DNA from: Natronospiraceae bacterium
GTDB taxonomy: Bacteria > Pseudomonadota > Gammaproteobacteria > Natronospirales > Natronospiraceae
Reading direction: 5' to 3'
Length of the DNA stretch: 56,692 bases
Assembly: GCA_007133205.1 (NCBI GenBank)
Contig: SLND01000018.1
Span: forward strand, 1 to 56,692
In this document: piece after piece, positions 1,199 to 18,792 of the stretch
How the letters are laid out: every line of letters begins with the position of its first letter
How positions within the stretch are numbered: position 1 is the first letter of the stretch
Program-made: the position numbers and the translations under genes
The notes under the pieces: generated by a model
What the model saw: the letters and a program-made list of their open reading frames with translations, nothing else
Databases searched by the model: none
What the model was told of the DNA's origin: nothing

Positions 1199-2757
1199 GT
1201 CAGCGACGTGACGTGATCGAATCCAGCGTCCCGGATCACGCCGAGGTGGTCATTGGCGAGCACCCCGTCTCGGCGGCCGAGGTGGATGCCATTGCTTCAC
1301 GTCGGCGCACGGTGGCATTGAGCAACGCACCTGAGTTCCGTGCCCGGATCGACCAGGGCGCCCGCCAGGTCCAGGCCCTGGTGGATCGAGGTGCCGAGGT
1401 CTACGGGATATCCACCGGCTTCGGCGACTCCTGCGCGGTTGCAGTGCCCGAGGATCAGATCGAGGACCTGCCGCTCAACCTGACCCGTTATCACGGCTGC
1501 GGCATGGGCGAGCACCTGTCCGACGAGGCAGTGCGCGCCACCCTGGTGGCACGGGCCACCTCCCTGGCCCAGGGTTTTTCCGGGGTCCGCCCCGAGCTGA
1601 TCGAATTGATCGTCCGTTTGCTGCGCGAGGATGTCCTGCCCCGGATGCCGGCGGAGGGTTCGGTCGGCGCGAGCGGGGATCTCACTCCCTTGTCCTATCT
1701 CGCCGCGGTCATGGTGGGGGAACGCGAGGTACGTCACTGTGGCCGGGAGCGCGCGGCGGCGGAAGTCCTCGCCGAGCTGGGGATCGAGCCACTGCAGTTG
1801 CGGCCCAAGGAAGGCCTGGCCCTGATGAACGGCACCGCGGTGATGACCGGCATTGCCTGCATTACCTCGGCCAGGGCACGCCAGCTGGTCGCACTCGCCA
1901 ATCGAATCACGGCCATGGCGACCCTGGCCATGGCCGGCAATGCCGATCATTTTCATCCCGCCCTGTTCCGGATGAAACCCCATGCCGGCCAGACCCGCTC
2001 GGCCCAGGCCATTCGCGAGGCCCTGCCCGACCGCAGTGAAATCCCGGGCATGCGACTCCAGGACCGCTATTCCCTGCGCTGCGCCCCGCATGTGATCGGA
2101 GTACTGGACGATACCCTGGACTGGACCGAAACCTGGCTGGAGACCGAACTCAACAGTGCCAATGACAACCCGCTGATCGACCCCGAGACGGGTGAGGTCT
2201 ATCACGGTGGGCACTTCTATGGCGGGCACGTGGGGCAGGCCATGGATTCGCTCAAGACCGCACTGGCCAGCGTTGCCGATCTGCTTGATCGACAGATGGC
2301 CCAGTTGGTGGATCCCCGTTTTTCCAATGGCCTGCCGGCCAACCTGGCCTGCGAGAACCAGGCCGCGCGGGCAAGCAATCACGGCCTCAAGGCATTGCAG
2401 ATCTCCGTCTCCGCCTGGACCGCGGAGGCGCTTCGTCTGACCATGCCGGCCACTTCCTTCTCCCGTTCCACCGAATGCCACAATCAGGACAAGGTGAGCA
2501 TGGGCACCATTGCCGCCCGGGATGCCCTGCGGGTGCTTGAACTGAGTGAGCAGGTGGTAACCGCGCTGCTGGTTTCGGTAAACCAGGCACTCGAGATCCG
2601 CAGGCAGCGGGGTGAGCTGCGGAGCCTGCCGGAGCCCGTTTCAGACACCTTCGCGCATACCGCCCGGCACTGCCCCTTCATCACCAGTGATCGCGCGCTC
2701 GAGTCTGAACTTCGCAACCTGCTCGCGCAGCTTCGTGAACGTGCCATTCCCTGCTGA
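1195..2757 (+). CDS. Aromatic amino acid ammonia-lyase (HAL/TAL/PAL family)
   Basis: MIO motif GASGDLTPLSYLAAV, LALMNGTAVMTG, NSANDNPLID; ATGA overlap with upstream gene. Confidence 0.93.
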   Translation: MSQRRDVIESSVPDHAEVVIGEHPVSAAEVDAIASRRRTVALSNAPEFRARIDQGARQVQALVDRGAEVYGISTGFGDSCAVAVPEDQIEDLPLNLTRYHGCGMGEHLSDEAVRATLVARATSLAQGFSGVRPELIELIVRLLREDVLPRMPAEGSVGASGDLTPLSYLAAVMVGEREVRHCGRERAAAEVLAELGIEPLQLRPKEGLALMNGTAVMTGIACITSARARQLVALANRITAMATLAMAGNADHFHPALFRMKPHAGQTRSAQAIREALPDRSEIPGMRLQDRYSLRCAPHVIGVLDDTLDWTETWLETELNSANDNPLIDPETGEVYHGGHFYGGHVGQAMDSLKTALASVADLLDRQMAQLVDPRFSNGLPANLACENQAARASNHGLKALQISVSAWTAEALRLTMPATSFSRSTECHNQDKVSMGTIAARDALRVLELSEQVVTALLVSVNQALEIRRQRGELRSLPEPVSDTFAHTARHCPFITSDRALESELRNLLAQLRERAIPC

Positions 2758-2766
2758 GGACCCTGA

Positions 2767-3216
2767 ATGAAAGCCGACATCCGCGCCGAAATCACGCTCG
2801 AAGTGCCCTTCCAGGACATCGATGCGATGGGGGTTGCCTGGCATGGCAATTATTTCCGCTATTTCGAGGAGGCCCGGGCCCGTCTCCTGCGTCGCATTGA
2901 TTATGATTATCCGCAGATGCGTGATTCGGGTTACATGTGGCCGATTGTCGATACCCGGGTGAAGTACGTGCGTCCGCTGACCTATGCCCAGACCGTGCGG
3001 GTGATCGCGGGGATCACGGAGTGGGAAAACCGCCTGCGTATCGACTACGAGATTCGTGATGGGGAGAGCGGAGATCGCCTGTGCCGGGCCCACACCATCC
3101 AGTGCGCGGTGCGTGCGGCGGATCATGAGCTGCAGCTGGTCTGCCCGCCTGAATTGACCGACCGCATCGAAGCCTGTCTCGCCGGGGAGAAATCGCAGGG
3201 GGAATCGCCGTCATGA
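2767..3216 (+). CDS. Acyl-CoA/ACP thioesterase, 4HBT hotdog family (ApeK-like)
   Basis: FQDIDAMGVAWHGNYFRYFEEARARLLRR hotdog thioesterase motif. Confidence 0.85.
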   Translation: MKADIRAEITLEVPFQDIDAMGVAWHGNYFRYFEEARARLLRRIDYDYPQMRDSGYMWPIVDTRVKYVRPLTYAQTVRVIAGITEWENRLRIDYEIRDGESGDRLCRAHTIQCAVRAADHELQLVCPPELTDRIEACLAGEKSQGESPS

Positions 3217-3806
3217 TTCGTGGTTTCTGTCTCGCACTCGCCTTTCTGTGCTGGGCCGCGCTGGCCCAGGCCGGCGAGGCGGTGGTTTTCGAGGCCGAAT
3301 TCGAGCAGACGCGGACTACCCCCGGGCTGGAACGCCCCTTCGAGAGCAGCGGTACGGTGCGCTGGACCGACGAGGAATACCTGGAATGGCAGACGAAAGA
3401 GCCCTTCGAATACCGCTATGTCCTGACCCGCGAATCCATGCTCGAGGAACTGCCCGATGGGGAGCGGCGGGAAATCCGGGCCGAGGATGCGCCCTGGGTC
3501 CTGTCCCTCAATGAGCTCTTGATGGCGGTCGTCAGTGGCGACAAGGAACGCATGGCAAGGCGGTTCGATATCGAGCAACTGGGCGCCGATGAGACGGATG
3601 CCGAACTCGAGCTTCTGCGTCTCACGCCCCGTGATACCGCCCTGGGCGAGCAGATCGAAGTGATCGAGGTCCGGCGGGCGGATCTGGTGCCGCGCCGCAT
3701 CGATCTTCACGAAACCGATGGTGGCCACACCCATATTCGCCTCCGGCCCGTGACTGGTGCCGATGCCCTCAAGGCCCCGGAAGAGGACGCGGAAGGCGAC
3801 TCATGA
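3213..3806 (+). CDS. LolA-like outer-membrane lipoprotein carrier protein (ApeL-like)
   Basis: Signal peptide MIRGFCLALAFLCWAALAQAGEA; LolA-like pattern (EFEQTRTTPGLERPFESSGTVRW); position before MMPL exporter. Confidence 0.72.
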   Translation: MIRGFCLALAFLCWAALAQAGEAVVFEAEFEQTRTTPGLERPFESSGTVRWTDEEYLEWQTKEPFEYRYVLTRESMLEELPDGERREIRAEDAPWVLSLNELLMAVVSGDKERMARRFDIEQLGADETDAELELLRLTPRDTALGEQIEVIEVRRADLVPRRIDLHETDGGHTHIRLRPVTGADALKAPEEDAEGDS

Positions 3807-6094
3807 TCCGCACTCTGGCCTGGATTGCCCTGCTCGCCGTTCTGGTGGCGCTGGCACTTGCCCGGACGGGCGAGGAAGGCCCCCTGGACACGGATGTGAC
3901 CCATCTCCTGCCCGAGGAGCACCAGGACCCGCTCGTGGCCGAGGCCATGAGCCGCAATCGCCTCGGAGTGAGCGACGAACTGCTGGTGCTGGTACGCGGT
4001 CCCGACCCCGCTGCTCGCGAGGCCGCCGAGGCGGTGGCCGGGATACTGCAATCCGAGGGCGGCGTGCGAACGCCGGTCCGGGAGGATACGGAACAGCTTG
4101 CTGAGCTCCTCGAGGATTACCGCTTTGGCCTGCTCGCCGATGATCGGCGTGAAGCCATGCGACTGGCGCCGTCGGCAAGCTATCTGGATGCGGTGCGTGC
4201 CCGCCTGGCCCGACCGGCACCCGGGATTGGCCTGTCCATTGATCGTGATCCCGCCGGTCTGTTTGCCGACTACCTCACGACCCTGCCGGCGCCCTATCCG
4301 GGATTCCGCGAAAGCGGGGATCTCTGGCAGCGGGAAGCGCAAGGGGAAACCCTCTGGCTGTTTCCCGGGCAGCTCGAGGGCAATGCCTTTGCCGAGGCGA
4401 CCCAGATCCGGGTTACCGAAGCCCTGGAGCGTGCCCGAGAAGTGGCGGCCGAGCGTTGTCCGGACTGCCTGGTACAGGCGACCGGCCCGGTGCGTTTTGC
4501 CTCGGAACAGCGCGATCGTGCCCGGCTCGAGGTCCTGATTCTGTCCAGCCTGTCCCTGACGGGTATCCTCGCCCTGATCCTGTTCGCCTTCCGCAGTCCA
4601 CGTCCATTGGCAATGGGGGTGCTCGCCCTTGGCTCCGGCGTCACGCTCGCGGTCGCCTTCTCCTTGCTGGTATTCGGGCGGCTGAATGTCATCACCCTGG
4701 TGGCCGGTACGACACTGCTCGGTATCAGCATCGACTATGTCTTCAAGTACCTTGTTCATCGCAGTGAAAGCGATGACGGCCATCGGGTCGTGCGGGGTCT
4801 CCTGCGCCCCCTGTCACTGGGCGTGGCCAGCAGTCTTCTCGCACTCGGCGTGCTCATGGCCAGTCCCTTCCCGGCCCTGCGGGAACTGGCGGTGTATGCC
4901 GCTGCCGGCCTGGCCGGGGCCTGGCTGACGGTCGTGCTGTTGTTTCCGAGCCTGGATCGCCACCGGCCCGCCCGCCTGGGAGAGGGAATCCAGAAGCTGC
5001 TGGGTGAAATACCTCCGGTGACCGGCGGTCCGCGGCGCCTGATTCCGGTCATCCCGCTGCTCTGCATTCCGATCGGGGTTCTCGCCTTTGTCCAGCTCCC
5101 GGGCACGGACGATGTCCGCAGTTTCCAGTCTCCGGTGGAGGCCCTGTTGAGCGAGGACGAGGCAGTGCGCAGCGCCACTGGAATGGCATTTCCCGAAGGT
5201 TTCTTCCTGGTCCGGGCAGATGATGCAGACGAAGTGCTCGAACGCGAGGCGGCCTTGATCGACGTCCTCGATCAGCAAAGCGGCCATCGGCGCAGTGTCG
5301 GAACGACCCGCCTGATTCCCCCTGTCAGTCAGCAGCGTGAAGCTCACCAGCTTGTCGGTGAGGCGCTGCACGACCCGGACTTGATCGATGCGCTGAAAGC
5401 ACTCGGGCTGGGGGCCGAAAGCCAGCAACGCCTGCGCGAGGACTGGGCCGCGGGCCAGGATCTCACGCTTCGCCCCGAGGTCCTGGCCGATACCGCGCTC
5501 GCGGATTTTCTCAATGCGGTATGGCTCACTGTCGATGGTCGCCCGGCAAGTCTGGTCGTGCCCCGAGGCCCGGTGCCCGAGACCCTGGTTTCCGATGCGG
5601 GTGAAGGGGTGAGCTTCATCCGGCCAGTGGAGGCCATGAACCAGACGCTCTCCGAGCAACGGGCCCATGCCTCGACCTGGATTCTGCTCGCCGCGGCTCT
5701 CGGCATCCCCGCCCTGTTCATGCTGATGCTTGGTCCACGCCGCGGGATGAAGGCGGCACTCGCTCCACTGAGTGCCCTGTCCCTGACTCTGATCTTTCTC
5801 TGGGTCAGTGGAATCGGTATCAACACCTTCGTGCTCATGGGCCTGGTGCTGGGCCTGGGTATTGGCGCTGATTATGCTGCCTTCCTTGCTTCCGAGCGGG
5901 GAACCGCCCGCGCCGGCATCACCGGCATTGGCCTGGCGGGCCTGACCACCCTGCTGGCCTTCGGCCTGCTGGGTCTGAGCCGTATTCCTGCCTTGCAGGA
6001 ATTCGGTCTCACTGCTGCCGTGGGGATCGTGACCGCCTGGCTGTGCGCCTTTATCATCGCGCGTCCGCCACCGGGACAGGAGATGCGGGCATGA
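3803..6094 (+). CDS. MMPL/RND-family exporter (ApeM-like)
   Basis: 763 aa with two blocks of TM helices; GISIDYVFKYLVHR and GLGIGADYAAFLASER. Confidence 0.88.
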   Translation: MIRTLAWIALLAVLVALALARTGEEGPLDTDVTHLLPEEHQDPLVAEAMSRNRLGVSDELLVLVRGPDPAAREAAEAVAGILQSEGGVRTPVREDTEQLAELLEDYRFGLLADDRREAMRLAPSASYLDAVRARLARPAPGIGLSIDRDPAGLFADYLTTLPAPYPGFRESGDLWQREAQGETLWLFPGQLEGNAFAEATQIRVTEALERAREVAAERCPDCLVQATGPVRFASEQRDRARLEVLILSSLSLTGILALILFAFRSPRPLAMGVLALGSGVTLAVAFSLLVFGRLNVITLVAGTTLLGISIDYVFKYLVHRSESDDGHRVVRGLLRPLSLGVASSLLALGVLMASPFPALRELAVYAAAGLAGAWLTVVLLFPSLDRHRPARLGEGIQKLLGEIPPVTGGPRRLIPVIPLLCIPIGVLAFVQLPGTDDVRSFQSPVEALLSEDEAVRSATGMAFPEGFFLVRADDADEVLEREAALIDVLDQQSGHRRSVGTTRLIPPVSQQREAHQLVGEALHDPDLIDALKALGLGAESQQRLREDWAAGQDLTLRPEVLADTALADFLNAVWLTVDGRPASLVVPRGPVPETLVSDAGEGVSFIRPVEAMNQTLSEQRAHASTWILLAAALGIPALFMLMLGPRRGMKAALAPLSALSLTLIFLWVSGIGINTFVLMGLVLGLGIGADYAAFLASERGTARAGITGIGLAGLTTLLAFGLLGLSRIPALQEFGLTAAVGIVTAWLCAFIIARPPPGQEMRA

Positions 6095-6678
6095 AGGCAG
6101 GATGGGTGTCATTGTTCGCACTGCTGGCGTTTCTCACGGCCTGCGCCGCTCCGGTTTCCCTCCCGGACGGAGAGTATTGCGAGCACCTGCATCCGCGCCT
6201 CGGATTCTGTCTGCTTGCGCCGGAGGAAATGGGTGTGATGGAAGAACGCCTGGATCGGGTCACGGTGGAAACGCCGGAGGAAACCCAGTCCTTCGTTGGC
6301 CAGCTGGCGGTGTCGGAGGGAGTCATGCAGATGGCTGCCCAGTCCCTTTCGGGAGTCGGCCTGTTTCGTGTCCGTTGGGACGGAGAGGAAATTGATGCCG
6401 ACACCGCGGTACCGATTGCGCAGCTCGAAGCGACTCATCTGGTCGCGCTCCTGCAAGTGGGGTTTGCGCCGAGCGATAAACTGAATGCCGCATTGCTCGG
6501 TGGCCGGGTGAGTGAGCGGGACGACGGCGAAGGCCGGGAAAGGGAGCTGGTGCTTGATGACGGGCGCAGTTTCCTGCGCGTTCGCCACGAAGGTTCGCCG
6601 GGGCCCGGCACTGCGGTCGAGATCACTGCCGGTCTTGATGAGCAAAGAACACGAATCCGGCTGGAACCGCTGGAGTGA
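6091..6678 (+). CDS. Lipoprotein, DUF3261-like (ApeN-like)
   Basis: Lipobox-like LAFLTACAAP; overlaps MMPL gene by 4 bp; position matches APE operons. Confidence 0.6.
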   Translation: MKAGWVSLFALLAFLTACAAPVSLPDGEYCEHLHPRLGFCLLAPEEMGVMEERLDRVTVETPEETQSFVGQLAVSEGVMQMAAQSLSGVGLFRVRWDGEEIDADTAVPIAQLEATHLVALLQVGFAPSDKLNAALLGGRVSERDDGEGRERELVLDDGRSFLRVRHEGSPGPGTAVEITAGLDEQRTRIRLEPLE

Positions 6679-6713
6679 TGGATAATCGGCATAAAGGCCG
6701 CAGGAGCGAGTAA

Positions 6714-7895
6714 TTGAGCATTTTTCTCAATCAACTGGGCATTGTTAACGGGCTTGGCCGCGGTTGTGGCGCCGTCTGTGATGCCATGCTGGCCGGGGAT
6801 CGTCGTGGCCTGAGCGAACGGATGACGCTCGTGCGCGGCGCTGAAGTGCCCGTCGGCGCGGTCACGGGAGATTTGCCCGCCATCGATGCCCGCCACCGGG
6901 ATCGCGACAGCCGCAACAACCGACTCCTGCTGGCCGCCCTGGAGGAGATTCGTGAAGCGGTGGAAACAGTGATCGCGCGCCATGGTTCCGAGCGGGTCGC
7001 GGTGGTGCTGGGCTCAAGCACCTCGGGGATCCTCGAGGGAGAAGCGGCCGTGGCCGCCCATTACCGCGAAGGACGAATTCCGCAGGACTTCCACTACCTT
7101 CAGCAGGAAGTGGGCAGCCCGTCCGAGTTTCTGGCCCGCGAACTGCAATTGACCGGTCCCTCCCTGACGCTCTCCACGGCCTGCACTTCGAGTGCCAAGG
7201 CCATGATCAGCGCGGCGCGCCTGATCCAGGCCGGGTTGTGTGACGCCGCCCTGGCGGGTGGGGTCGATTCCCTGTGCCGGCTCACGATCAACGGCTTCGA
7301 TGCCCTGGAAAGCATGTCCGAGGGCTATTGCAATCCCTTCAGCCGCAACCGCGACGGGATCAATATCGGCGAGGGCGCGACGCTCTTTCTGATGAGCCGG
7401 GACGAGGGACCGCTGCGGCTGGCGGGCTGGGGGGAGAGCTCGGATGCCCATCACATCTCCGCCCCCGACCCGGAGGGGGTGGGCGCGGAAGCCGCGATGC
7501 GTGCGGCCCTCCGCCGCGCAGGCATGGGGCCGGAAGCGGTCTCCTACCTTAATGCCCACGGGACCGGTACCATGAAGAACGATCTCATGGAGAGCCACGC
7601 CGTGACCCGGGTGTTCGGCAAGGACCTGCCGGTGGGTTCGAGCAAGGGCATGATCGGACATACCCTGGGTGCGGCCGGTGCCACCGAGGCTGCCCTGTGC
7701 TGGCTGTCCCTGCATACCGACTTCGGTGCGGGACGGCTGCCGCCGCACGTCTGGGATGAAGTGCCGGACACGGAGCTGGCCCCGCTTCGTCTGGTGGGGC
7801 CCGCGGAACGGCTTGGACCGGAGCGGTCCCCGGTCGCGGTCAGCAATGGCTTTGCCTTCGGAGGGAGCAACGCCGTGCTGGTGATCGCAGCCTGA
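6714..7895 (+). CDS. Beta-ketoacyl-ACP synthase (ApeO-like KS), TTG start
   Basis: TLSTACTSSAKAM active-site Cys; LNAHGTGT; GHTLGAAGATE. Confidence 0.92.
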   Translation: MSIFLNQLGIVNGLGRGCGAVCDAMLAGDRRGLSERMTLVRGAEVPVGAVTGDLPAIDARHRDRDSRNNRLLLAALEEIREAVETVIARHGSERVAVVLGSSTSGILEGEAAVAAHYREGRIPQDFHYLQQEVGSPSEFLARELQLTGPSLTLSTACTSSAKAMISAARLIQAGLCDAALAGGVDSLCRLTINGFDALESMSEGYCNPFSRNRDGINIGEGATLFLMSRDEGPLRLAGWGESSDAHHISAPDPEGVGAEAAMRAALRRAGMGPEAVSYLNAHGTGTMKNDLMESHAVTRVFGKDLPVGSSKGMIGHTLGAAGATEAALCWLSLHTDFGAGRLPPHVWDEVPDTELAPLRLVGPAERLGPERSPVAVSNGFAFGGSNAVLVIAA

Positions 7896-7898
7896 AGA

Positions 7899-8390
7899 GT
7901 GACAATGAAGGGGAACAAGCACTTGAACCTGGAAGATCTGGTACCCCATCGCGGTGACATGCTGCTGCTGGACGAGATCGTCTCAATGAGCGACAGCGGT
8001 GCGCATGCCAGAGCCCATATGCACTCGAATCATCCTTTCCGGGTCGAGGGCAGGGGAGTGCCCGCCTGGGTTGGCATGGAACTGATGGCCCAGACCATTG
8101 CCGCCTTTTCAGGTCGCCATGCCCGGCAGGCCGGTGAACCGGTGCGGCTGGGATATCTGCTCGGTGCCCGTGCCTATGATTGCGAGCGGGACAGTTTCCC
8201 CGAGGGGGCGGTCCTGGATATTCATGTACGCGAAGACCTGCGCCAGGACAATGGCTTCGGTGCTTTCAGCGGCACGGTGGAACTCGACGGGGAAATACTT
8301 GCCAGCGGGCGACTGAATGTATTCCAGAGCGAAGATGTTGCCCCGGGCTTTGCCAGCGAATCCTCTGATAATCATAAGGATGGAGCATGA
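7899..8390 (+). CDS. Hotdog-fold 3-hydroxyacyl-ACP dehydratase (ApeP-like)
   Basis: LVPHRGDMLLLDEIV, PAWVGMELMAQTIAAFSG; between KS and KR genes. Confidence 0.87.
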   Translation: MTMKGNKHLNLEDLVPHRGDMLLLDEIVSMSDSGAHARAHMHSNHPFRVEGRGVPAWVGMELMAQTIAAFSGRHARQAGEPVRLGYLLGARAYDCERDSFPEGAVLDIHVREDLRQDNGFGAFSGTVELDGEILASGRLNVFQSEDVAPGFASESSDNHKDGA

Positions 8391-9124
8391 CGGAGAGGGA
8401 TCACAGGCGGGTACTGGTGACTGGTGCCAGCCGTGGCATCGGGCATGCGATTGCCGCGCGTCTGGCGGAAAACGGCTTTCATGTGGTGCTGCATTACCGC
8501 TCCGGACGCGAGGCGGCCGAGAAATTGGCCGGGCAGTTGCAGGAGGCTGGACACAGTTGCGAAACCATCGGGTTCGATATTGCCGATCGCGATGCCGTCC
8601 GTGAAACCCTGGAGACCATGGTGGACGAGTCCGGTCCCTTTTATGGTGTGGTCTGCAATGCGGGGGTCACGGCCGACAATGCCTTTCCTGCCATGACCGG
8701 CGAGGAATGGGATCGGGTCGTCCACACCAATCTGGACGGTTTCTACAACGTGGTGCACCCGCTGGTCATGCCCATGGTGCGTGCGCGCAAGGGCGGGCGC
8801 ATTGTTGCCCTGTCTTCCGTGTCGGGGCTGATGGGCAATCGCGGTCAGGCAAATTACGCGGCCTCCAAGGCGGGTATTATCGCGGCCAGCCAGAGCCTGG
8901 CGCTGGAACTGGCCAGGCGGCGGATCACGGTGAACTGTGTGGCGCCGGGTCTGATCGAGACGGACATGATTGCCGATGCCCCGGTGGAAGAGGCACTGAA
9001 GCTGATTCCGGCCGGACGCCTGGGCAAACCCGAAGAGGTGGCCGCCGTGGTGGCCTTTCTGATGTCGGACGAGGCGGCCTATGTGACCCGCCAGGTTTTC
9101 GCGGTCAATGGAGGAATGTGCTGA
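8387..9124 (+). CDS. 3-ketoacyl-ACP reductase, FabG/SDR family (ApeQ-like)
   Basis: TGASRGIGHAIA, YAASKAGIIAASQSLALELARRRITVNCVAPGLIETDM. Confidence 0.93.
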   Translation: MTERDHRRVLVTGASRGIGHAIAARLAENGFHVVLHYRSGREAAEKLAGQLQEAGHSCETIGFDIADRDAVRETLETMVDESGPFYGVVCNAGVTADNAFPAMTGEEWDRVVHTNLDGFYNVVHPLVMPMVRARKGGRIVALSSVSGLMGNRGQANYAASKAGIIAASQSLALELARRRITVNCVAPGLIETDMIADAPVEEALKLIPAGRLGKPEEVAAVVAFLMSDEAAYVTRQVFAVNGGMC

Positions 9125-10353
9125 TGCACCGCGTAGTAGTGACAGGTGTGGGTGGCCTGACGGCTCTGGGACATGACTGGCCCAGCATCCGCTCCGAATT
9201 GAAGGCGGGCCGGACCGGCATCCGATACATGCCCGAATGGGAAGAATTCAAGGATCTCAATACCAAGCTGGCCGGTCCGGTAAAGGCGTTTGATCGGCCG
9301 TCCGGCTATGGCCGCAAGCAGACCCGCAGCATGGGTCCGGTGGCGCTGATGGCGACCATTGCCGCGGACAAGGCCTTGCAGGATGCCGGCCTGCGTGAGG
9401 ATCCGATCCTGACCAGTGGCCGGGCGGGCGTGGCTTCCGGTTCCTCGTCGGGCAGTATCGGGGCGACCGAGGCCTTTGCGCGCTATCTGCAGACCGGCAA
9501 GATTTCCGGTGTCACCTCCAACAGCTACGTCCAGATGATGGGGCATACCGCGCCGGTCAACATCGCCCTGTTCTTCCGCATGACGGGACGCATCATCCCC
9601 ACCAGTTCCGCATGTACTTCCGGCAGTCACGGGGTCGGCTACGCCATGGAGGCCATTCGTCATGGCAAGCAGGACATGATGATTGGCGGTGGTGCCGAGG
9701 AATTGAGCAGTGCCGATGCCGCGGTTTTCGACACTCTGTTCGCTACCAGCACACGCAATGATGCACCGGAGACCACCCCGGCACCCTATGACCGGGACCG
9801 GGATGGCCTCGTGGTGGGCGAGGGTGCGGTCAATCTTGTTCTCGAGTCCCTGGAACATGCGCAGGCGCGGGGGGCGAATATCCTTGCGGAAGTGGTGGGT
9901 TATGGCACCAATTCCGATGGCACGCATATTACCCAGCCCAATGCCGAGACCATGGCGGTGGCCATGCGCCTGGCACTCGAGGATGCCGATCTGCATCCGG
10001 ACCGGGTTGGTTATGTGAGTGGACATGGGACAGCCACGGATCGAGGTGATATCGCCGAAACCGAGGCCACCCGTGAGATCTTCGGGCGGGCGGTGCCGAT
10101 CAGCTCCATGAAGAGCTATTTCGGTCACACCCTGGGCGCCTGTGGATCACTGGAAGCCTGGCTGGCGATCGAGATGATGCGTGAAGGCTGGTTTGCCCCG
10201 ACGGTCAACCTCCACAACGTGGACGAACGCTGTGCCGATCTTGATTACATCACGGGTGATGGCCGCGAGATCGATACCGAATATGTGATGAGCAACAATT
10301 TTGCGTTTGGCGGGATCAATACTTCCCTGATTTTCCGCCGCTGGGACGGCTGA
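9124..10353 (+). CDS. Beta-ketoacyl-ACP synthase II family (ApeR-like KS)
   Basis: VVVTGVGGLTALG, PTSSACTSGSHGVGYA, VSGHGTATDRGD, FGHTLGACGSLEAW. Confidence 0.92.
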   Translation: MHRVVVTGVGGLTALGHDWPSIRSELKAGRTGIRYMPEWEEFKDLNTKLAGPVKAFDRPSGYGRKQTRSMGPVALMATIAADKALQDAGLREDPILTSGRAGVASGSSSGSIGATEAFARYLQTGKISGVTSNSYVQMMGHTAPVNIALFFRMTGRIIPTSSACTSGSHGVGYAMEAIRHGKQDMMIGGGAEELSSADAAVFDTLFATSTRNDAPETTPAPYDRDRDGLVVGEGAVNLVLESLEHAQARGANILAEVVGYGTNSDGTHITQPNAETMAVAMRLALEDADLHPDRVGYVSGHGTATDRGDIAETEATREIFGRAVPISSMKSYFGHTLGACGSLEAWLAIEMMREGWFAPTVNLHNVDERCADLDYITGDGREIDTEYVMSNNFAFGGINTSLIFRRWDG

Positions 10354-10399: not shown

Positions 10400-11344
10400 A
10401 TGGACAAGCGCAAGCGCATACTTCTCGTTCATTATTCCCAGACTGGGCAATTGAGTCGGATTGCCCGAACGCTGGCCGCTCCCCTGGAGGAAGATACTGA
10501 CCTGGAGCTGGTGGAGCTCGAACTTGAGCCCGAGCGAGCCTTTCCCTTTCCCTGGGGCGTCTTCCAGTTCATGGATGCGTTCCCGGAATGCGTCTGGCGG
10601 GATCCGCCGCCCCTGCGAGAAGCCCGTATCGAGGCACTCTCTCAAGAGCCCTTTGACCTGGTGATCCTCTGTTACCAGGTATGGTTCCTGTCTCCTTCGC
10701 TGCCGGTCACCGCCTTTGTCCAGTCATCGGCGGGAAGGCGCCTGCTTGCCGATACCCCGGTGGTTACCGTGATCGGATGCCGCAACATGTGGACCCAGGC
10801 GCATGCGGCCATGGAGGAAATGCTGGCGGAGGCGGGTGCGCGTCTGACAGACAACGTGGTCCTGACCGATCCGGGTGGCTTCGAAACCTTCTACACCACG
10901 CCCCGCTGGTTGTTGACCGGACGCCAGGGACGCGCCGGCATCCCCGAGTCCGAGATCCAGGGGAGCGTGCGCTTCGGCCATGCCCTGCGCGCAGCCCTGA
11001 AGGCGGACCGGGAACGCCAGGGTGGTCCCTTGCTGGCCGGCCTGGGGGCGGTTCGGGTCGATCCCGCCCTGGCACTCAGCGAAGGCATCGGAATCCGGAG
11101 CTTTCGCCTCTGGGGTCGCCTCATTCGTCTTGCCGGACCCATGGGCAGCCGGCGACGCCGGCCGCTGCTTGCCCTCTACATGGTCTTCCTGGTGGTGATG
11201 ATCCTGACCATCGTGCCGGTGGTGGCGATTCTGAAACGTCTCGCGCGTCCCCTGTTGAAGCCGCGGCTGAACAGATTACGGGCCCGTTTCGAGGCTCCTT
11301 CGGGTTCCGGTCAGGAACGTCTGGCGGAGTATGGCCATGACTAG
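10400..11344 (+). CDS. darA: Dialkylresorcinol condensing enzyme (DarA-like)
   Basis: N-terminal flavodoxin-like ILLVHYSQTGQLSRIARTL as in DarA-family proteins; immediately precedes DarB-like KAS III. Confidence 0.78.
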   Translation: MDKRKRILLVHYSQTGQLSRIARTLAAPLEEDTDLELVELELEPERAFPFPWGVFQFMDAFPECVWRDPPPLREARIEALSQEPFDLVILCYQVWFLSPSLPVTAFVQSSAGRRLLADTPVVTVIGCRNMWTQAHAAMEEMLAEAGARLTDNVVLTDPGGFETFYTTPRWLLTGRQGRAGIPESEIQGSVRFGHALRAALKADRERQGGPLLAGLGAVRVDPALALSEGIGIRSFRLWGRLIRLAGPMGSRRRRPLLALYMVFLVVMILTIVPVVAILKRLARPLLKPRLNRLRARFEAPSGSGQERLAEYGHD

Positions 11345-12488
11345 GGCGGTATACATCAACGGGGTCGCCGCCTTCCTGCCCGGGGATCCGGTTCCGAACG
11401 AGGAAATGGAAGAGCGACTGGGCCGGATCAATGGGCAGGCGTCGCGTGCCCGTGGGGTAGTGCTGCGCAGCAACGGCATTCGTTATCGTCACTACGTGAT
11501 CGATCCTGAAACCGGTCGGCCGCGCTGGAACAATGCACAGCTCACGGCCGAGGCCGTGCGTGGCCTGTATGCGCGTCCAGAGGCCATGAGTTCGATCGAG
11601 ACCCTGGCCTGCGGGACGTCCATTGCCGACCAGTTGATGCCCAGCCACGCGGTCATGGTGCAGGGGGAGCTGGGTATTCCTCCCTGTGACGTCGTCGGTA
11701 CGTCCGGTGTCTGCGCGGCCAGCATGGGGGCCCTGCGTTATGCCTGGTTGTCAGTGCTGGCCGGGGGCAGCGATCACGCGGTCGCCACCGGTTCCGAGGT
11801 GGCCTCCACCATGATGCAGGCGCGAATGTTTCAGGCCGAATCCGAGGAACGTATCGAGGCCCTGGAACAAAACCCCGAGATTGCCTTCGATCGTGAATTC
11901 CTGCGCTGGATGCTGTCCGATGGTGCCGGTGCCGTCCGTCTGGGATCCACGCCGGATCCGGATGGTTTTGGTCTGCGCGTGGACTGGCTGGAAATTCTGT
12001 CCTACGCGGGGGAAATGCCGCCGTGCATGTATGCCGGAGCGGAAAAGACCGAGGACGGGCGCCTGTTGGGATGGCGCGAAATCGATGATCTCGGAGAACT
12101 GGTTGCCAGTGGCGTACTCACGGTCAAGCAGGATGTGCGGCTTCTCAATGAAGCGGTAGTGCGCGTGACCGTGGAACAGGCGATGGAGGAACTGCAACGC
12201 CGCCACACCATCTCTGCGGACGACGTGGACTGGTTCCTGCCTCATATTTCTTCCGAGTACTTTCGCGAACGCCTTGCCAAGGGTCTGGAAAATGCCGGCT
12301 TGCCCATTCCCGCCGAGCGCTGGTTCACCAACCTCAGCGAGCGTGGCAATACCGGTTCCGCCTCCCTGTTCATCATGCTTGACGATCTGGTGAAAAGCGG
12401 ACGTCTGAAATCCGGCGAGCGCATTCTGTGCTTTGTGCCCGAAAGCGGACGCTTTACCTCTGCCTGGCTGCAGCTGACGGTCGCCTGA
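11331..12488 (+). CDS. darB: Beta-ketoacyl-ACP synthase III family (DarB-like)
   Basis: KAS III features: DVVGTSGVCAASMGALRYA active-site region, FLPHISSEYFRERLAK, NLSERGNTGSASLFIML; pairs with DarA-like gene. Confidence 0.85.
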   Translation: MAMTRAVYINGVAAFLPGDPVPNEEMEERLGRINGQASRARGVVLRSNGIRYRHYVIDPETGRPRWNNAQLTAEAVRGLYARPEAMSSIETLACGTSIADQLMPSHAVMVQGELGIPPCDVVGTSGVCAASMGALRYAWLSVLAGGSDHAVATGSEVASTMMQARMFQAESEERIEALEQNPEIAFDREFLRWMLSDGAGAVRLGSTPDPDGFGLRVDWLEILSYAGEMPPCMYAGAEKTEDGRLLGWREIDDLGELVASGVLTVKQDVRLLNEAVVRVTVEQAMEELQRRHTISADDVDWFLPHISSEYFRERLAKGLENAGLPIPAERWFTNLSERGNTGSASLFIMLDDLVKSGRLKSGERILCFVPESGRFTSAWLQLTVA

Positions 12489-12889
12489 TGAAGAAATCCG
12501 AAGTACCCCAGGAAGAAAATCGAACCTATGGCGGTCTGCGCAAGGCGGTCTATGCGCGTGATGAATCCGGCCGGCACAGCGTGGTTCCCAGCAGTGGCTG
12601 GCGGGCCGAGGAGGCGGCCACCGAGATGGCTGTCGCGCTGTTCCGGGAGGCGGCCGAGTCGGCCCGGCAGGCCTGCCGCGAGGGCCGGGCATCGCCAATG
12701 ATGGTGCACATGTACGCCCGGCGTATGGATCCACCGACCCTGGCCCAGGCGACCGGCCTGGCCACCTGGCGGGTTCGGCGTCATCTGCGTCCGGGACCCT
12801 TCAGGCGCCTGCCCCGGCGACTGCGCAAGCGCTATGCCGATGCCCTGGGCCTGAGTCAGGAACAACTGGACAGGCTGCCTGATGACTGA
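12488..12889 (+). CDS. Small conserved-type protein of the DAR locus, C-terminal HTH-like segment
   Basis: 133-aa ORF coupled to both neighbours; C-term TLAQATGLATWRVRRHLRPGPFRRLPRRLRKRYADALGLSQEQLDRL resembles a Cro/C1-like HTH. Confidence 0.7.
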   Translation: MKKSEVPQEENRTYGGLRKAVYARDESGRHSVVPSSGWRAEEAATEMAVALFREAAESARQACREGRASPMMVHMYARRMDPPTLAQATGLATWRVRRHLRPGPFRRLPRRLRKRYADALGLSQEQLDRLPDD

Positions 12890-13898
12890 AGCCACGCCCT
12901 CATGCAGTCAGTTTCAGCACCACCATGCGGCGCACTGTGAAAGTGGCGTGGCCTCCGCCCTGCTGACCAACGCCGGCATGCCTATCAGTGAAGCCATGGC
13001 CTTCGGCCTGTCCTCGGCGCTGACCTTTGCCCATCTGCCCTATCCCAGGGTCAATGGATTTCCGCTGACTTCCTATCGTCTCCCGCCGGGCATGGTGATC
13101 GGGCGCCTGTGTCGCCGTCTCGGCGTGCGCATGCGCCGGGAACGTTTCCGCAATGCCGATGCCGGCATGCGGGCCCTGGACGAATATCTCGATGCAGGGC
13201 GCCCCGTGGGACTTCAGACCTCGGTCTACTGGCTGCCCTATTTTCCCCCGGACATGCGTTTTCATTTCAACGCCCACAACCTTGTGGTGTTCGGCCGCGA
13301 GGGGGATGACTATCTGATCAGTGATCCGGTATTCGAGGAGGTCCAGCACTGTCCAGCCGCGGACCTGCGCCGGGCCCGCTCGGTCAAGGGGCTGTTCGCG
13401 CCGCGCAACCTCATCTATTACCCCCGAACCATCCGCAAGGATCCGGATTGGACTCGCATGATCCGCGCGAGTCTGCGTGCGAGTTGCAACATGATGCTGC
13501 GTACCCCGGTGCCGCTGATCGGCGTGCGGGGCATTCACCGCCTGGCGCGCAAATTGCGAAAGCTGCCCGGACGTCAGGACCCGCGCTGGGCAAGAATGTA
13601 CGTCGCCCAGATCATCCGCATGCAGGAAGAGATAGGCACCGGCGGCGGTGGCTTCCGCTTCATGTATGCCGCCTTTCTCGAAGAAGCCGCCGAACGCCTC
13701 GGGGGGCACGAAGCTCTGCTCGAGGCGGCGGACAGCATCACCCGGGCGGGCGACGGCTGGCGCGATTTCGCTGCCGCCGGCGCATTGCTGGTCCAGGACA
13801 GGTCGGGCGTGGACTACCCGGACCTGGCGGACCGCCTGGAACACTGCGCCGAACTGGAGAGCGAGGCCTTCACCCTGCTTGATCGCAGTTTCCGCTAG
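12882..13898 (+). CDS. BtrH N-terminal domain-like protein (putative Cys-dependent acyltransferase)
   Basis: HHAAHCESGVASALL, FHFNAHNLVVFGREGDDYLISDPVF: Cys-His-Asp arrangement typical of BtrH_N/papain-like folds. Confidence 0.75.
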   Translation: MTEATPSCSQFQHHHAAHCESGVASALLTNAGMPISEAMAFGLSSALTFAHLPYPRVNGFPLTSYRLPPGMVIGRLCRRLGVRMRRERFRNADAGMRALDEYLDAGRPVGLQTSVYWLPYFPPDMRFHFNAHNLVVFGREGDDYLISDPVFEEVQHCPAADLRRARSVKGLFAPRNLIYYPRTIRKDPDWTRMIRASLRASCNMMLRTPVPLIGVRGIHRLARKLRKLPGRQDPRWARMYVAQIIRMQEEIGTGGGGFRFMYAAFLEEAAERLGGHEALLEAADSITRAGDGWRDFAAAGALLVQDRSGVDYPDLADRLEHCAELESEAFTLLDRSFR

Positions 13899-14015: not shown

Positions 14016-14897
14016 TCAAGCACGGACAACTTCCAGCACCGCATACTGTGCCTGCTCACCAGATCCGTATTCGGCCTCGACATGCAGCCAGCGATCACCC
14101 GGCGCGGCCAGTTCCAGAAACCGATCCAGTCCGGCACCGACATTGGTGTCGTAATACCCGGCCTGTTCCAGGTAATCCAGTTGCTGCCCCGGCAGATCAT
14201 TATCCCCGTCGGCCTCCTGCGCGAGATTCCAGCCGGTTGAACTGTGACTCACCGATTTCCCGTGTTCCGCGAGCAGGCGTTCAAGTGCCGCCCGGTCCTT
14301 GAGGAATACCGGCGGATGAATCTCGGCAAGGGCATGGGCGGGTTCGCGCGACAGCAAGAACCAGTGACTGCCTTCACCCACCGCTGTCTCGACTGCCAGG
14401 CCCAGTCGCTCCCGGTGCCAGGCCAGTGGCATGGCGCATTCATCCACTGCCCCGAGCAGGACCATTTCACACTGACTCGCGGCCAGGTCCAGCATGGCCA
14501 ATTGCAGGCTCATCTCGAATGACCAGCGGCGCCGCGAAATCATGAGATTGACATGATCCAGACCCAGGGACTGCGCCAGGGTAAAGCCGGCGGCATTGCT
14601 CGAGACATTGATGAACTCGAAGGGCATGGGAGTGATCCCGTCGCGGTGACTCCGCCGCACCATTTCCGCGGAGCTGGCGGCATCGCCCTGACCGGTGGCG
14701 AGATAGATGCCCGTACTGGAGGGAAGGTCCCGGTCCTGGACGCAGCGGTGGCCGCCAAGCAGGGCCAGGTCGATGAAGCGGTTGGTCCGCCGTATGTGGT
14801 GCCCGGTCTGTTCGCGCAAGGCGGCCTTGAGATCGGCCGGTGCCTCCGTGACCCGGGTGCCGTAGCTGCCGCTCGCATGCACATACACCGGTCTCAT
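14016..14897 (-). CDS. Truncated beta-ketoacyl synthase-like protein without active-site Cys (CLF-like)
   Basis: ORF restarted at MRPVYVHASGSYG; KS-like N-terminal half; Cys-containing motif replaced by FINVSSNAAGFTLAQSLG; 4-bp overlap with upstream KS. Confidence 0.7.
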   Translation of the reverse strand: MRPVYVHASGSYGTRVTEAPADLKAALREQTGHHIRRTNRFIDLALLGGHRCVQDRDLPSSTGIYLATGQGDAASSAEMVRRSHRDGITPMPFEFINVSSNAAGFTLAQSLGLDHVNLMISRRRWSFEMSLQLAMLDLAASQCEMVLLGAVDECAMPLAWHRERLGLAVETAVGEGSHWFLLSREPAHALAEIHPPVFLKDRAALERLLAEHGKSVSHSSTGWNLAQEADGDNDLPGQQLDYLEQAGYYDTNVGAGLDRFLELAAPGDRWLHVEAEYGSGEQAQYAVLEVVRA

Positions 14898-16117
14898 CGG
14901 ACTCCCTCCCGGGACACGAGCAGGGTGGTATTGCTGCCACCAAAGCCAAAGAAGTTGAGCATGATGGCACCGCCGGGATCGGCCAGGTCCCGGTCCAGGG
15001 GTGCAATGCCGATATCTTCGTCGAGCTTGCGAAAGCCTGAAGTGGCGGGAATCCATCCCCGTCTCAGGGATTCAAAGAACAGGATGGTCTCGATGGGCCC
15101 GCAGGCCCCGAGTGTATGACCCACCGCGGATTTCAGGGTCGTGAACGGCGGCAGGCCGGCCCCGAATACCTCCCTGAGGGCGCGGCCCTCCACCAGGTCA
15201 TTGGCCGGAGTGCTGGTGCCATGGACCTTGATCGCGCCAATGTCACCGGGGGCGAGACCGGCATTGGCCAGTGCCTCGCACATGACCGCGCGAATCCCCG
15301 GCTGACTGGAGGTGGTCACCGAGCTGCTGTCACCGCGGGTGCTGCCGCCGAGCAGCCGCATGCCCTCATACCCCGGTGCCGGGTCCAGCTCGTCGGCGCG
15401 CCCCAGCAGCATGGCACCGGTCCCTTCACCCAGGACCACGCCGTCGCGGTCCCGGTCGAAGGGGCGCATGGTGGTGGGGCTGATCAGCATCAGGGAGGAA
15501 AAACCTTCCAGCGACAGCAGATTGCCGAATTCGATGCCGACTACCAGCGCACGGCGGATTACCCCGGCCTGGATCAGGCGGGTAGCGTAGAGCATGGCAT
15601 TGGCGCTCGAGGCGCAGGCGGTGTTGAAGGTCCAGTGCAGGCCGTCGAGCCGGAATCGGTTCGCAATCCGGCTGGCCAGTGTGCCGTAGCCGAGCTGACT
15701 CAACAGGACACCGGCATGGCGGCTATCGTATCGGGGCGGCGCGTCAAGTCGTCCGGCGGCAAGATCGGCACGGTAGGCCGCTTCCGTGACCCCGATATCC
15801 TTGGAGGTGGAGCCGACCAGGATGGCCGTATCCGACAGGTCGATACCCTGGTCGCGCAGCGGGGCAATGGCCTGAGCCACCGCGTTGTCGATCATCCGGT
15901 TGAGCCGCTCGCTTTCGGACTCACCGTCCGCCTGTCCCGGGCAGTGTTGCCGCCAGGCCATGAGGGGGCATTGGTGCTCTCCGTCCGTGCCCATTGGCAC
16001 CTGGACCGGATCGACCCCGTCTGCCAGCTGGTCCACCGCGTCGGCGGGCGTATCCCCGAGCGCGCAACTGAGCCCGGTCCCCGCGATCATCACCGCATGC
16101 TGACCATGCGCGTTCAT
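14894..16117 (-). CDS. Beta-ketoacyl-ACP synthase II family
   Basis: HWTFNTACASSANAMLYATRL, VHGTSTPANDLVE, VGHTLGACGPIETILF. Confidence 0.92.
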   Translation of the reverse strand: MNAHGQHAVMIAGTGLSCALGDTPADAVDQLADGVDPVQVPMGTDGEHQCPLMAWRQHCPGQADGESESERLNRMIDNAVAQAIAPLRDQGIDLSDTAILVGSTSKDIGVTEAAYRADLAAGRLDAPPRYDSRHAGVLLSQLGYGTLASRIANRFRLDGLHWTFNTACASSANAMLYATRLIQAGVIRRALVVGIEFGNLLSLEGFSSLMLISPTTMRPFDRDRDGVVLGEGTGAMLLGRADELDPAPGYEGMRLLGGSTRGDSSSVTTSSQPGIRAVMCEALANAGLAPGDIGAIKVHGTSTPANDLVEGRALREVFGAGLPPFTTLKSAVGHTLGACGPIETILFFESLRRGWIPATSGFRKLDEDIGIAPLDRDLADPGGAIMLNFFGFGGSNTTLLVSREGVR

Positions 16118-16404
16118 GTGCGCCCGGCAATATAGTGGGCCAGGGTGCGGACATTGGTCATCAGGCGGCGGACTTCCTTGGGGTCGCTCAGCCGAATTCC
16201 GTAGCGGCGCTGGATTTCTGCAGAGATCTGCAGGCCGTCGAGAGAATCCAGTTCCAGGCGCGCGGTTTCACCAAACAGGGTTTCTTCGTCGCTGATGCTT
16301 TCCGGCGCGATGTCCTTGTCGCAGACTTCCACGATCATGCCCTTGAGTTCTTCTGTCAGCCTGCTCAGTTCTGCGTCCTGGGAATTGGAATCCGGGCCTT
16401 GCAT
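16114..16404 (-). CDS. Acyl carrier protein
   Basis: 96 aa, phosphopantetheine site RLELDSLDGLQISAEIQRRYG. Confidence 0.9.
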   Translation of the reverse strand: MQGPDSNSQDAELSRLTEELKGMIVEVCDKDIAPESISDEETLFGETARLELDSLDGLQISAEIQRRYGIRLSDPKEVRRLMTNVRTLAHYIAGRT

Positions 16405-16486
16405 TGATTGCTCCAGGGGGATTGCTCCAGGGGTGGGTCCGGGGGCCTGGTGTCGGCAAATCCTTCAGCCCGACCCCGTACACGAT

Positions 16487-17629
16487 TCAGGGTTCCTGTC
16501 TGCGAAATACCATCGCGGCCACGATCAGGCAGATCAAGCCGATTGTGACCAGTGCCAGGGCGTGGCCGGCCACCTCGTTCCAGCTGCCGGTGCCCGTTAT
16601 GGTGGATACCATGCCGTCCAGTGCCCAGTTGAGCGGAGAAAGCCTGCTCAACTCCTGCATGACCGGCGGCATCGCGAACGCGGGCACCATGATACCGCCA
16701 ATCGCTGCCATCAGCAGGGTAACAGCCCCACCGGTGGCGACTGCCTGCAACTGGGTGCGGCAGATCATGGCCACCAGCAGGGCAAAGCCGACCGCTGCGA
16801 CGCTGGTGGCCAGAATCATCACGAGCAGGGCCGACCAGGGCCCCTGGACCGTGAACTGCCCACCCCCGAGGGCCGGCACCAGCCAGATGCCGACGGCGAC
16901 CATGCACGCGGCCTGCGCCAGATTCACCAGCCCGTAGGTGGCGAATCGCGAGGCCATCAGGTCCCACGCGCCGACGCCGGCGGCTCGGAAACGCGCGAGC
17001 ATGCCCCGATCGCGATCACGGATGACCGTGCCGCTCAGTGGGACCACCGCAAAGAACATGCCGAAGATCAGCCAGGCCGGCACGTTCTGTTCCACCGCAC
17101 TGGGCAGGGCCACCTCTCTGCCCTCCGGGTCGGTCGTCACGGTCTGGAGCGGCAATTCCGTCACCCAGTCACCGGCCTCTCCGGGTGGAATCAGGAATTC
17201 CTCGACCACCAGCCGGCCCGCCACCTGCTGTACCCCGATCGTCAGCAGCGCGCGGCTATCGGCGGGAAGGGCGGCATCCACCTCCAGGCGCAGACCGGCC
17301 CGCTCCAGGTCTTCGGCCAGCAACGCATCCTCGAAACCTTCCGTGATCCGCAGGATGGCCTGGGCCTGGGCCTCGGCCTCATCGGCCGTGAGTTCGAGGA
17401 GTTCGAGATCCTCCAGCTCCGCCCGCAGGCGCCCGGAGAGTTCCGTATCGTCCTGGTCATCCAGGTACACACCGATGCCGACGCGCTCATCCAGGGTCGG
17501 CTGCAGGGCCAGGGACATGACAAGCACGAAGGTGACCGGCATCAGGAACAGGACCGCCAGTCCGTGGGCATCCCGCAGGAGCAGGGCCGCCTCGCGCCTT
17601 GCGAGAAGCCACCAGGCCGGGCTGATCAT
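16487..17629 (-). CDS. ABC-2 type transporter permease
   Basis: Start set at MISPAWWLLARREAALLL (ATGA overlap with ATPase gene stop); ABC-2 pattern with ~6 TM, IRDRDRGMLARFRAAGV, GG.MVPAFAMPPVMQ. Confidence 0.9.
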   Translation of the reverse strand: MISPAWWLLARREAALLLRDAHGLAVLFLMPVTFVLVMSLALQPTLDERVGIGVYLDDQDDTELSGRLRAELEDLELLELTADEAEAQAQAILRITEGFEDALLAEDLERAGLRLEVDAALPADSRALLTIGVQQVAGRLVVEEFLIPPGEAGDWVTELPLQTVTTDPEGREVALPSAVEQNVPAWLIFGMFFAVVPLSGTVIRDRDRGMLARFRAAGVGAWDLMASRFATYGLVNLAQAACMVAVGIWLVPALGGGQFTVQGPWSALLVMILATSVAAVGFALLVAMICRTQLQAVATGGAVTLLMAAIGGIMVPAFAMPPVMQELSRLSPLNWALDGMVSTITGTGSWNEVAGHALALVTIGLICLIVAAMVFRRQEP

Positions 17630-18519
17630 TGGCGGACTCCCCGTGCCAGGTGGGCGCGGTAATCCCGTTCGATGTTGCCGCTCCCCCATTGAAACCGGGT
17701 CAGCTCGCCGGCATGGGAAGCCAGTTGCCGCATCAGCTCCGGCAAGGCCTCGACCTCGGGGCGTGCGCTCCAGTGTCCCGGTGCAAGCTGCCGGGCACCA
17801 GGTAGTGGCGAGAAAAGCTCATCAAGCAGTTCGGACAGCCGTCCCTTGCCGGCCACTTCCAGTACCGGGCCTGAATCCACCGTGGCGTCGGACAGCAGGT
17901 GTCCTTCCTCGAGCACGGCAAACCTTTCGCACAGCGCCGACATTTCCGGCAGGTAATGGGAAGTGAACAGGATCGCGTGTCCCGCTGTGGCCAGTTCCCG
18001 GATCCTGGCAAGCATCAGTTCCCGCGAAGCCATGTCGATACCCACGGTGGGCTCGTCAAGAATCAGGAGCGTGGGTTCGCCCAGCAGGCCCAGGGCCAGG
18101 TTGAGCCGTCGCTGCTGGCCACCGCTCAGGCGTCCGGCCCGCTGCCCGGCCAGTCCTTCCAGTCCGGTCTGCTCGAGCGCCCTGGGTACGTCGCGGGAGG
18201 CCTCGCCCCCGCGCAGGCGGGCGAACAGCGCCAGATTCTCGTACACGGTGAAATCCGGTTCGAAGGCCAGTCCCTGGGGGACCATGCCGATATGCCGGCG
18301 CATTTCCGCGGGTGCCCTGCCCAGTACGCGGACTTGTCCGTGGCCGGGTGTGAGCAGGCCACAGGCGATCCGGATCAGGGTGGTCTTGCCGGCACCGTTG
18401 GGGCCGAGCAGCCCCAGGATCACGCCCCGTTCCAGGGACAGGGACACCGAGTCGAGCGCGGGCCTTTCCTGCCCCGGAAAGCGATGGCTGATCTGTGACA
18501 GTTCCAGTGCCGTGTTCAT
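17626..18519 (-). CDS. ABC transporter ATP-binding protein
   Basis: Walker A GPNGAGKTT, signature LSGGQQRRLNLA, Walker B LLILDEPTVGID; start chosen at MNTALELSQISH. Confidence 0.93.
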   Translation of the reverse strand: MNTALELSQISHRFPGQERPALDSVSLSLERGVILGLLGPNGAGKTTLIRIACGLLTPGHGQVRVLGRAPAEMRRHIGMVPQGLAFEPDFTVYENLALFARLRGGEASRDVPRALEQTGLEGLAGQRAGRLSGGQQRRLNLALGLLGEPTLLILDEPTVGIDMASRELMLARIRELATAGHAILFTSHYLPEMSALCERFAVLEEGHLLSDATVDSGPVLEVAGKGRLSELLDELFSPLPGARQLAPGHWSARPEVEALPELMRQLASHAGELTRFQWGSGNIERDYRAHLARGVRQ

Positions 18520-18792
18520 GGCTGTGGCATGCGCCTGCTTGCGGGAAAAGCCTGCCATCCTCTCGTATTCATGCGGAGTCTGCCACCGGAACCCCTGAAA
18601 CAATCACTACGCGTGAGCCGTTGGCGCTGAAAGCGACTGATTCGGCGTTTCATTGCTTGCCCCCGGCGCAGAGGCTACTGTGCTGCGCAACATACCTGAA
18701 TCCGCCGTTCTCAGCACTAACTGCTGACGCAGACGGATTGATGAGAGGTTCCATAACCGCCGGTGTGACTCGACCGATCAGAGGTACCCCAG

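Follow-up and report, generated by a model that had tools for sequence, protein, structure and literature searches.

DarH, a BtrH-related protein encoded in a locus of aryl-polyene and dialkylresorcinol genes, as candidate enzyme for flexirubin-type ester formation

A contiguous aryl-polyene and dialkylresorcinol locus

The window, i.e. the whole analysed stretch of 56,692 nucleotides of a Natronospiraceae contig, starts with aryl-polyene genes on the forward strand. Based on Pfam and NCBIfam matches, the gene order at 11-10353 follows apeJ to apeR of the E. coli cluster (PMC8253772): an ApeJ-like glycosyltransferase/acyltransferase with an LpxL-type acyltransferase part (11-1198; Pfam; 5' end outside the window), an MIO aromatic amino acid ammonia-lyase for the starter unit in FlxA-like position (1195-2757), a 4HBT thioesterase in ApeK position (2767-3216), a LolA-like protein in ApeL position (3213-3806), an ApeM-like RND/MMPL transporter (3803-6094; Pfam and NCBIfam), a lipoprotein, a ketosynthase (6714-7895; NF006618, 486 bits) that corresponds to ApeO by its position and its retained Cys-His-His, an ApeP-like dehydratase (7899-8390; PF22817), a ketoreductase in ApeQ position (8387-9124) and a ketosynthase in ApeR position (9121-10353; NF006587). 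In NCBIfam, the ammonia-lyase scored best against the BagA/FevW tyrosine ammonia-lyases, with 446 bits, which is under the cut-off, versus 397-407 bits for HutH. At the level of sequence scores, this suggests that a proteobacterium uses a flexirubin-like starter derived from tyrosine.

The genes darA-darB-darG-darH follow on the same strand as apeO-P-Q-R with a gap of less than 50 bp. The putative dialkylresorcinol (DAR) aromatase or condensing protein DarA (10400-11344; named after PMC3949708) had no Pfam or NCBIfam match; its assignment is based on synteny and on similarity to the gene that precedes darB in other loci. DarB (11331-12488) is a ketosynthase of the StlD/DarB family for cyclohexanedione/resorcinol ring formation (NF005293, 557 bits, cut-off 450), and the start of darG (12488-12889; 133 amino acids; NF053536 DarG family, 146 bits, cut-off 70) lies within the darB stop codon. 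The start of darH (12882-13898; ATG at 12882, TAG at 13898; 338 amino acids) overlaps the end of darG by 8 bp. Divergently to darH, the reverse strand (14016-18603) encodes a truncated, DarK-like ketosynthase-like protein without active-site Cys (14016-14897), a DarJ-like ketosynthase with Cys-His-His kept (14894-16117; active-site residues of both read by inspection), a DarC-like acyl carrier protein (ACP) as candidate acyl donor (16114-16404; PF00550), and the ABC-2 transporter permease (16487-17689) and ABC transporter ATPase (17626-18603) of the dar module. The Cys-bearing ketosynthase and its truncated, Cys-less partner at 14016-16117 resemble a ketosynthase/chain-length-factor pair with its own ACP. 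At this locus, the genes of the polyene pathway thus directly adjoin those of the resorcinol pathway and, with ape-type genes and darAB in one cluster, the locus has the gene content of a flexirubin/arcuflavin-type cluster.

Family, conserved residues and predicted fold of DarH

DarH consists of a BtrH_N domain (PF14399, residues 18-149, 9e-48) and a DUF4872 domain (PF16169, residues 161-333, 3e-52). It matched the NCBIfam equivalog model NF053550, 'BtrH-related acyltransferase DarH', with 451.4 bits (curated cut-off 300 bits) over model positions 1-324 of 325. Since this model already names DarH, the protein kind had been catalogued before. In the 2014 arcuflavin paper, the Azoarcus homologue (darE, azo0290) is called a 'BtrH-like peptidase', with no function given (PMC3949708); in strain BH72, this member of the NF053550 family has the same darA-darB-darG-darH context and adjoins a polyene cluster. 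A search of the open-access journal literature revealed no DarH characterised biochemically or genetically. An earlier note on this DNA had described a BtrH-like protein with a Cys-His-Asp pattern whose gene overlaps the gene after darB, and the family matches, the overlap with darG and the alignment described below agree with it on all three points.

The proposed catalytic residues C19, H132 and D148 lie in the motifs HHAAHCESG (residues 14-22), AHNLVVFG (131-138) and DDYLISDP (142-149). In an alignment of 74 DarH orthologues with 36-58% identity, H132 and D148 were kept in all sequences and C19 in 73, the exception being a contig-edge fragment. The spacing between His and Asp was 16 in 71 of 75 DarH sequences. 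All three residues were also kept in two distant paralogues (genomes G138 and G013; 28-32% identity) encoded outside dar loci, as expected of a catalytic triad. Judged by this conservation, the Cys-His-Asp pattern is not due to chance. The invariant or near-invariant residues of the orthologues included H18, C19, E20, G22, H128, N130, H132, D148 and the block 246-259; the DarH-specific conserved residues other than the triad presumably serve substrate recognition.

The AlphaFold2 model of DarH had a pLDDT of 91.4 and a pTM of 0.90. In this model, C19 opens helix 19-30, H132 opens strand 132-140 and D148 comes after strand 143-147, so that the predicted layout is papain-like. Read from the secondary structure of the model, the triad lies at the helix and strand ends expected of papain topology. 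Sequence searches of solved structures with DarH or a DarH profile returned chance matches to designed helical proteins and a marginal AziU3 and were uninformative, so a fold comparison was needed. Using Foldseek against the PDB, the only significant full-length matches of the model were AziU3, CtaG and CcbD (E 1e-7 to 1e-11, TM 0.62-0.72), followed by a match with E = 0.02. The viral fold library yielded no significant match and the defence library no match. The best match was AziU3 (E 2e-11, TM 0.68), the structure of which was solved as AziU3/U2, known for aziridine ring formation in azinomycin biosynthesis.

CtaG of closthioamide biosynthesis (E 1.6e-8, TM 0.62-0.72) shares with DarH the Cys-His-Asp residues and a proposed aryl-acyl transfer: it has been proposed to move 4-hydroxybenzoyl off a carrier protein (PMC6772006), and its deposited variants C11A, H128A and D144N (PDB titles) correspond to a His-to-Asp spacing of 16, as in DarH. 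However, the two proteins are only 10-11% identical, and CtaG acts on a carrier-bound beta-alanine chain and forms an amide. CcbD (E 1.6e-8, TM about 0.64) and LmbD are lincosamide condensing enzymes with catalytic Cys19 and His131 that perform a carrier-protein-dependent ping-pong acyl transfer; a C19S mutant of CcbD is deposited in the PDB. The carrier-bound acyl group is loaded on the Cys and then passed to the acceptor, and fatty acyl groups are also accepted (PMC12945683). CcbD differs from DarH in sequence (16% identity), in its third residue (Glu instead of Asp) and in making an amide. It also has a carrier-docking Arg cluster in its C-terminal helix, whereas the orthologue alignment revealed no conserved Lys/Arg cluster in DarH residues 310-337, so carrier docking must differ. 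On these sequence grounds, DarH may work like CcbD without being a CcbD. BtrH, the butirosin ACP:aminoglycoside acyltransferase, shares the BtrH_N domain with DarH and is a papain-like Cys enzyme drawing on an ACP (PMC10318531), as is proposed for DarH; it was set beside DarH by domain and acylates an aminoglycoside whereas DarH would esterify a phenol. Among the solved relatives of DarH, which mainly make amides, we found no ester-forming member.

The predicted fold of DarG comprises an N-terminal hairpin, a long helix and an XRE/Cro-like helix-turn-helix (about residues 70-120). Its fold matches (NGO0477, C.AhdI, ClgR and 434 Cro) were weak, the best being XRE-type helix-turn-helix proteins. 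Going by this model, DarG could be a regulator or a helix-turn-helix-fold partner of DarH. A role as AziU2-like subunit of DarH was considered but is not supported, as there was no AziU2 chain among the top 50 fold matches of DarG. NF053536 names the protein only as 'dialkylresorcinol biosynthesis protein'. The darG-darH arrangement recurs on two plasmids, where unrelated BtrH_N genes lie directly behind, and overlap, a TetR regulator gene (Acinetobacter, NZ_CP040051, 4357-5951) or a MerR regulator gene (Streptomyces, NZ_CP106799, 5204-7011).

Distribution of DarH across genomes

The distribution of DarH, DarB and the ApeO-type ketosynthase, each scored above cut-off, was determined in 321 genomes of the same class as the source. 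The ketosynthase model NF006618 was used as polyene marker, since PF22817 missed several polyene-positive genomes. The ApeO-type ketosynthase was present in 72 genomes, including all 18 with DarB, and 15 of these 18 also encoded DarH. DarH was absent from the 54 polyene-only genomes and from the 249 genomes without polyene ketosynthase, and hence no DarH occurred without DarB. Fisher tests, in which the kinship of the genomes is ignored, gave p = 4e-23 for DarH with DarB and 7e-13 within the polyene-positive genomes. In a second sample of 339 genomes, partly the same as the first, DarH and DarB marked the identical 12 genomes.

The three exceptions (G104, loci L097 and L115; G198, L096 and L117; G221, L095 and L116) have their darAB pair standing alone, apart from the polyene cluster that they also carry, and lack darH. 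Around the lone darAB, darG, the ABC genes, the ACP and the ketosynthase pair are absent as well, and no BtrH_N protein was found genome-wide, two of the three assemblies being only 82-85% complete. These genomes may serve as natural negative controls in which DAR and polyene would stay uncoupled.

The order darA-darB-darG-darH was found across Pseudomonadota, Campylobacterota and Bacteroidota. In 35 darH loci that extended 6 kb or more to both sides, darA and darG were near darH in all 35 and darB and the ABC genes in 34 each; 33 of these loci had a ketosynthase and 30 an ACP. Genome G072 has its ABC genes at a distance from darH. Since darG, the ABC pair, the ACP and the ketosynthases are co-inherited with darH, presence and absence point to the module and not to DarH singly. 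Within the dar module, it is the fold and triad of DarH that single it out; its distribution does not.

Proposed ester formation and alternative roles

For decades, flexirubins have served as a chemotaxonomic marker, and few bacterial natural products are as widespread as the aryl polyenes; joined, DAR and polyene make a yellow-orange pigment of the bacterial membrane. A search of the open-access literature revealed no enzyme shown to form the ester that links the two halves. For this step, the genome comparison yields a single-gene prediction: DarH is restricted to genomes encoding both halves of the pigment, which, together with its family, triad and fold, makes ester formation the best explanation of its role. 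We know of no extra covalent step other than esterification that is peculiar to strains in which both pathways occur. Since polyene assembly takes place on an ACP, a carrier-protein-dependent Cys acyltransferase would offer the right chemistry. We thus infer, with a probability of roughly 0.6, that DarH joins the aryl polyene to the dialkylresorcinol as an ester-forming acyltransferase. Fold, triad, family name, gene order and distribution support, though they do not prove, this reading, which the earlier note had put forward from the locus itself.

Azoarcus BH72 provides chemical context. There, the DAR-polyene ester was seen by mass spectrometry and a BtrH-like gene lies beside darAB; the Azoarcus DAR proteins yield free DAR in E. 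coli, and Azoarcus itself shows no free DAR (PMC3949708). Other genes of the dar cluster should therefore act after DAR formation.

By analogy to CcbD, DarH would proceed through an acyl-enzyme. C19, activated by H132 and D148, would accept the completed aryl-polyene chain, carried until then by the phosphopantetheine arm of an ACP, and bind it as a Cys thioester. In a papain-like ping-pong sequence, the dialkylresorcinol made by DarB/DarA would enter after acyl loading, and its phenolic hydroxyl group, deprotonated by H132, would attack this thioester, and a phenolic ester of the flexirubin/arcuflavin type would result. Polyene-ACP as donor, DAR as acceptor and an ester as product are the probable reaction partners, and both the DarC-like ACP and a polyene ACP are candidates for the donor carrier. 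We consider it somewhat better than an even bet that DarH is the missing flexirubin-type coupling enzyme in this full sense, transferring the ACP-borne polyene via its Cys to the DAR phenol and representing an ester-forming branch of a papain-like family in which the characterised members make amides.

Two other assignments are unlikely, to nearly the same degree. According to the slightly better one, DarH acts in acyl supply as a carrier-protein transacylase or editing thioesterase, moving or removing acyl groups between ACPs or handing them to DarB, for the DAR chains or the polyene, while a different enzyme makes the ester. The dedicated ACP and ketosynthase pair that accompany DarH in most loci would suit such a role, as would the handling of carrier-bound thioesters by its relatives (PMC12945683). 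However, this role fits poorly with the sufficiency of the DAR proteins for DAR formation in E. coli (PMC3949708), with the three genomes that retain darAB without darH, and with the absence of DarH from all 54 polyene-only genomes of the sample.

According to the other assignment, the ester is made by FlxW or by LpxL/PlsC-type acyltransferases (ApeJ/ApeD), DarH being an accessory, e.g. for a second acylation or for export maturation. A 'ligase-like' FlxW has indeed been proposed for coupling in Chitinophaga pinensis (PMC3992019), and an ApeJ-like acyltransferase is encoded at the start of our locus. On the other hand, ApeD and ApeJ belong to the E. coli APE cluster, where their proposed role is to fix the polyene on a lipid anchor (PMC8253772). 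As that cluster has no DAR genes, these enzymes are not DAR-specific, whereas DarH is specific to DarB-positive genomes.

A C39-like processing peptidase serving the neighbouring ABC transporter, an idea that draws on the closeness of BtrH_N to C39 among papain-like families (PMC10318531) and on the linkage of ABC-2 transporter genes to darH, is highly improbable, given the acyltransferase-type fold matches with E of 1e-8 to 1e-11 compared to only 0.02 for the C39-bearing PCAT1 transporter, the nature of DarH as a separate protein with DUF4872, the lack of any visible precursor peptide and the remote ABC genes of G072.

With regard to the proposed coupling enzyme, the source copy of DarH deviates from its orthologues at two positions: it has Ser167 (codon 13380-13382) and Asn176 (codon 13407-13409) where 73 of 74 orthologues have Phe and Gly. 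Because these residues are unusual, this copy may, as far as its sequence indicates, be impaired or specialised. Two DarH copies were found on a Bacteroidales contig (L061), one at 534-1520 on the forward strand and one at about 6604 on the reverse strand, the second being more divergent, with 37% identity to the source DarH.
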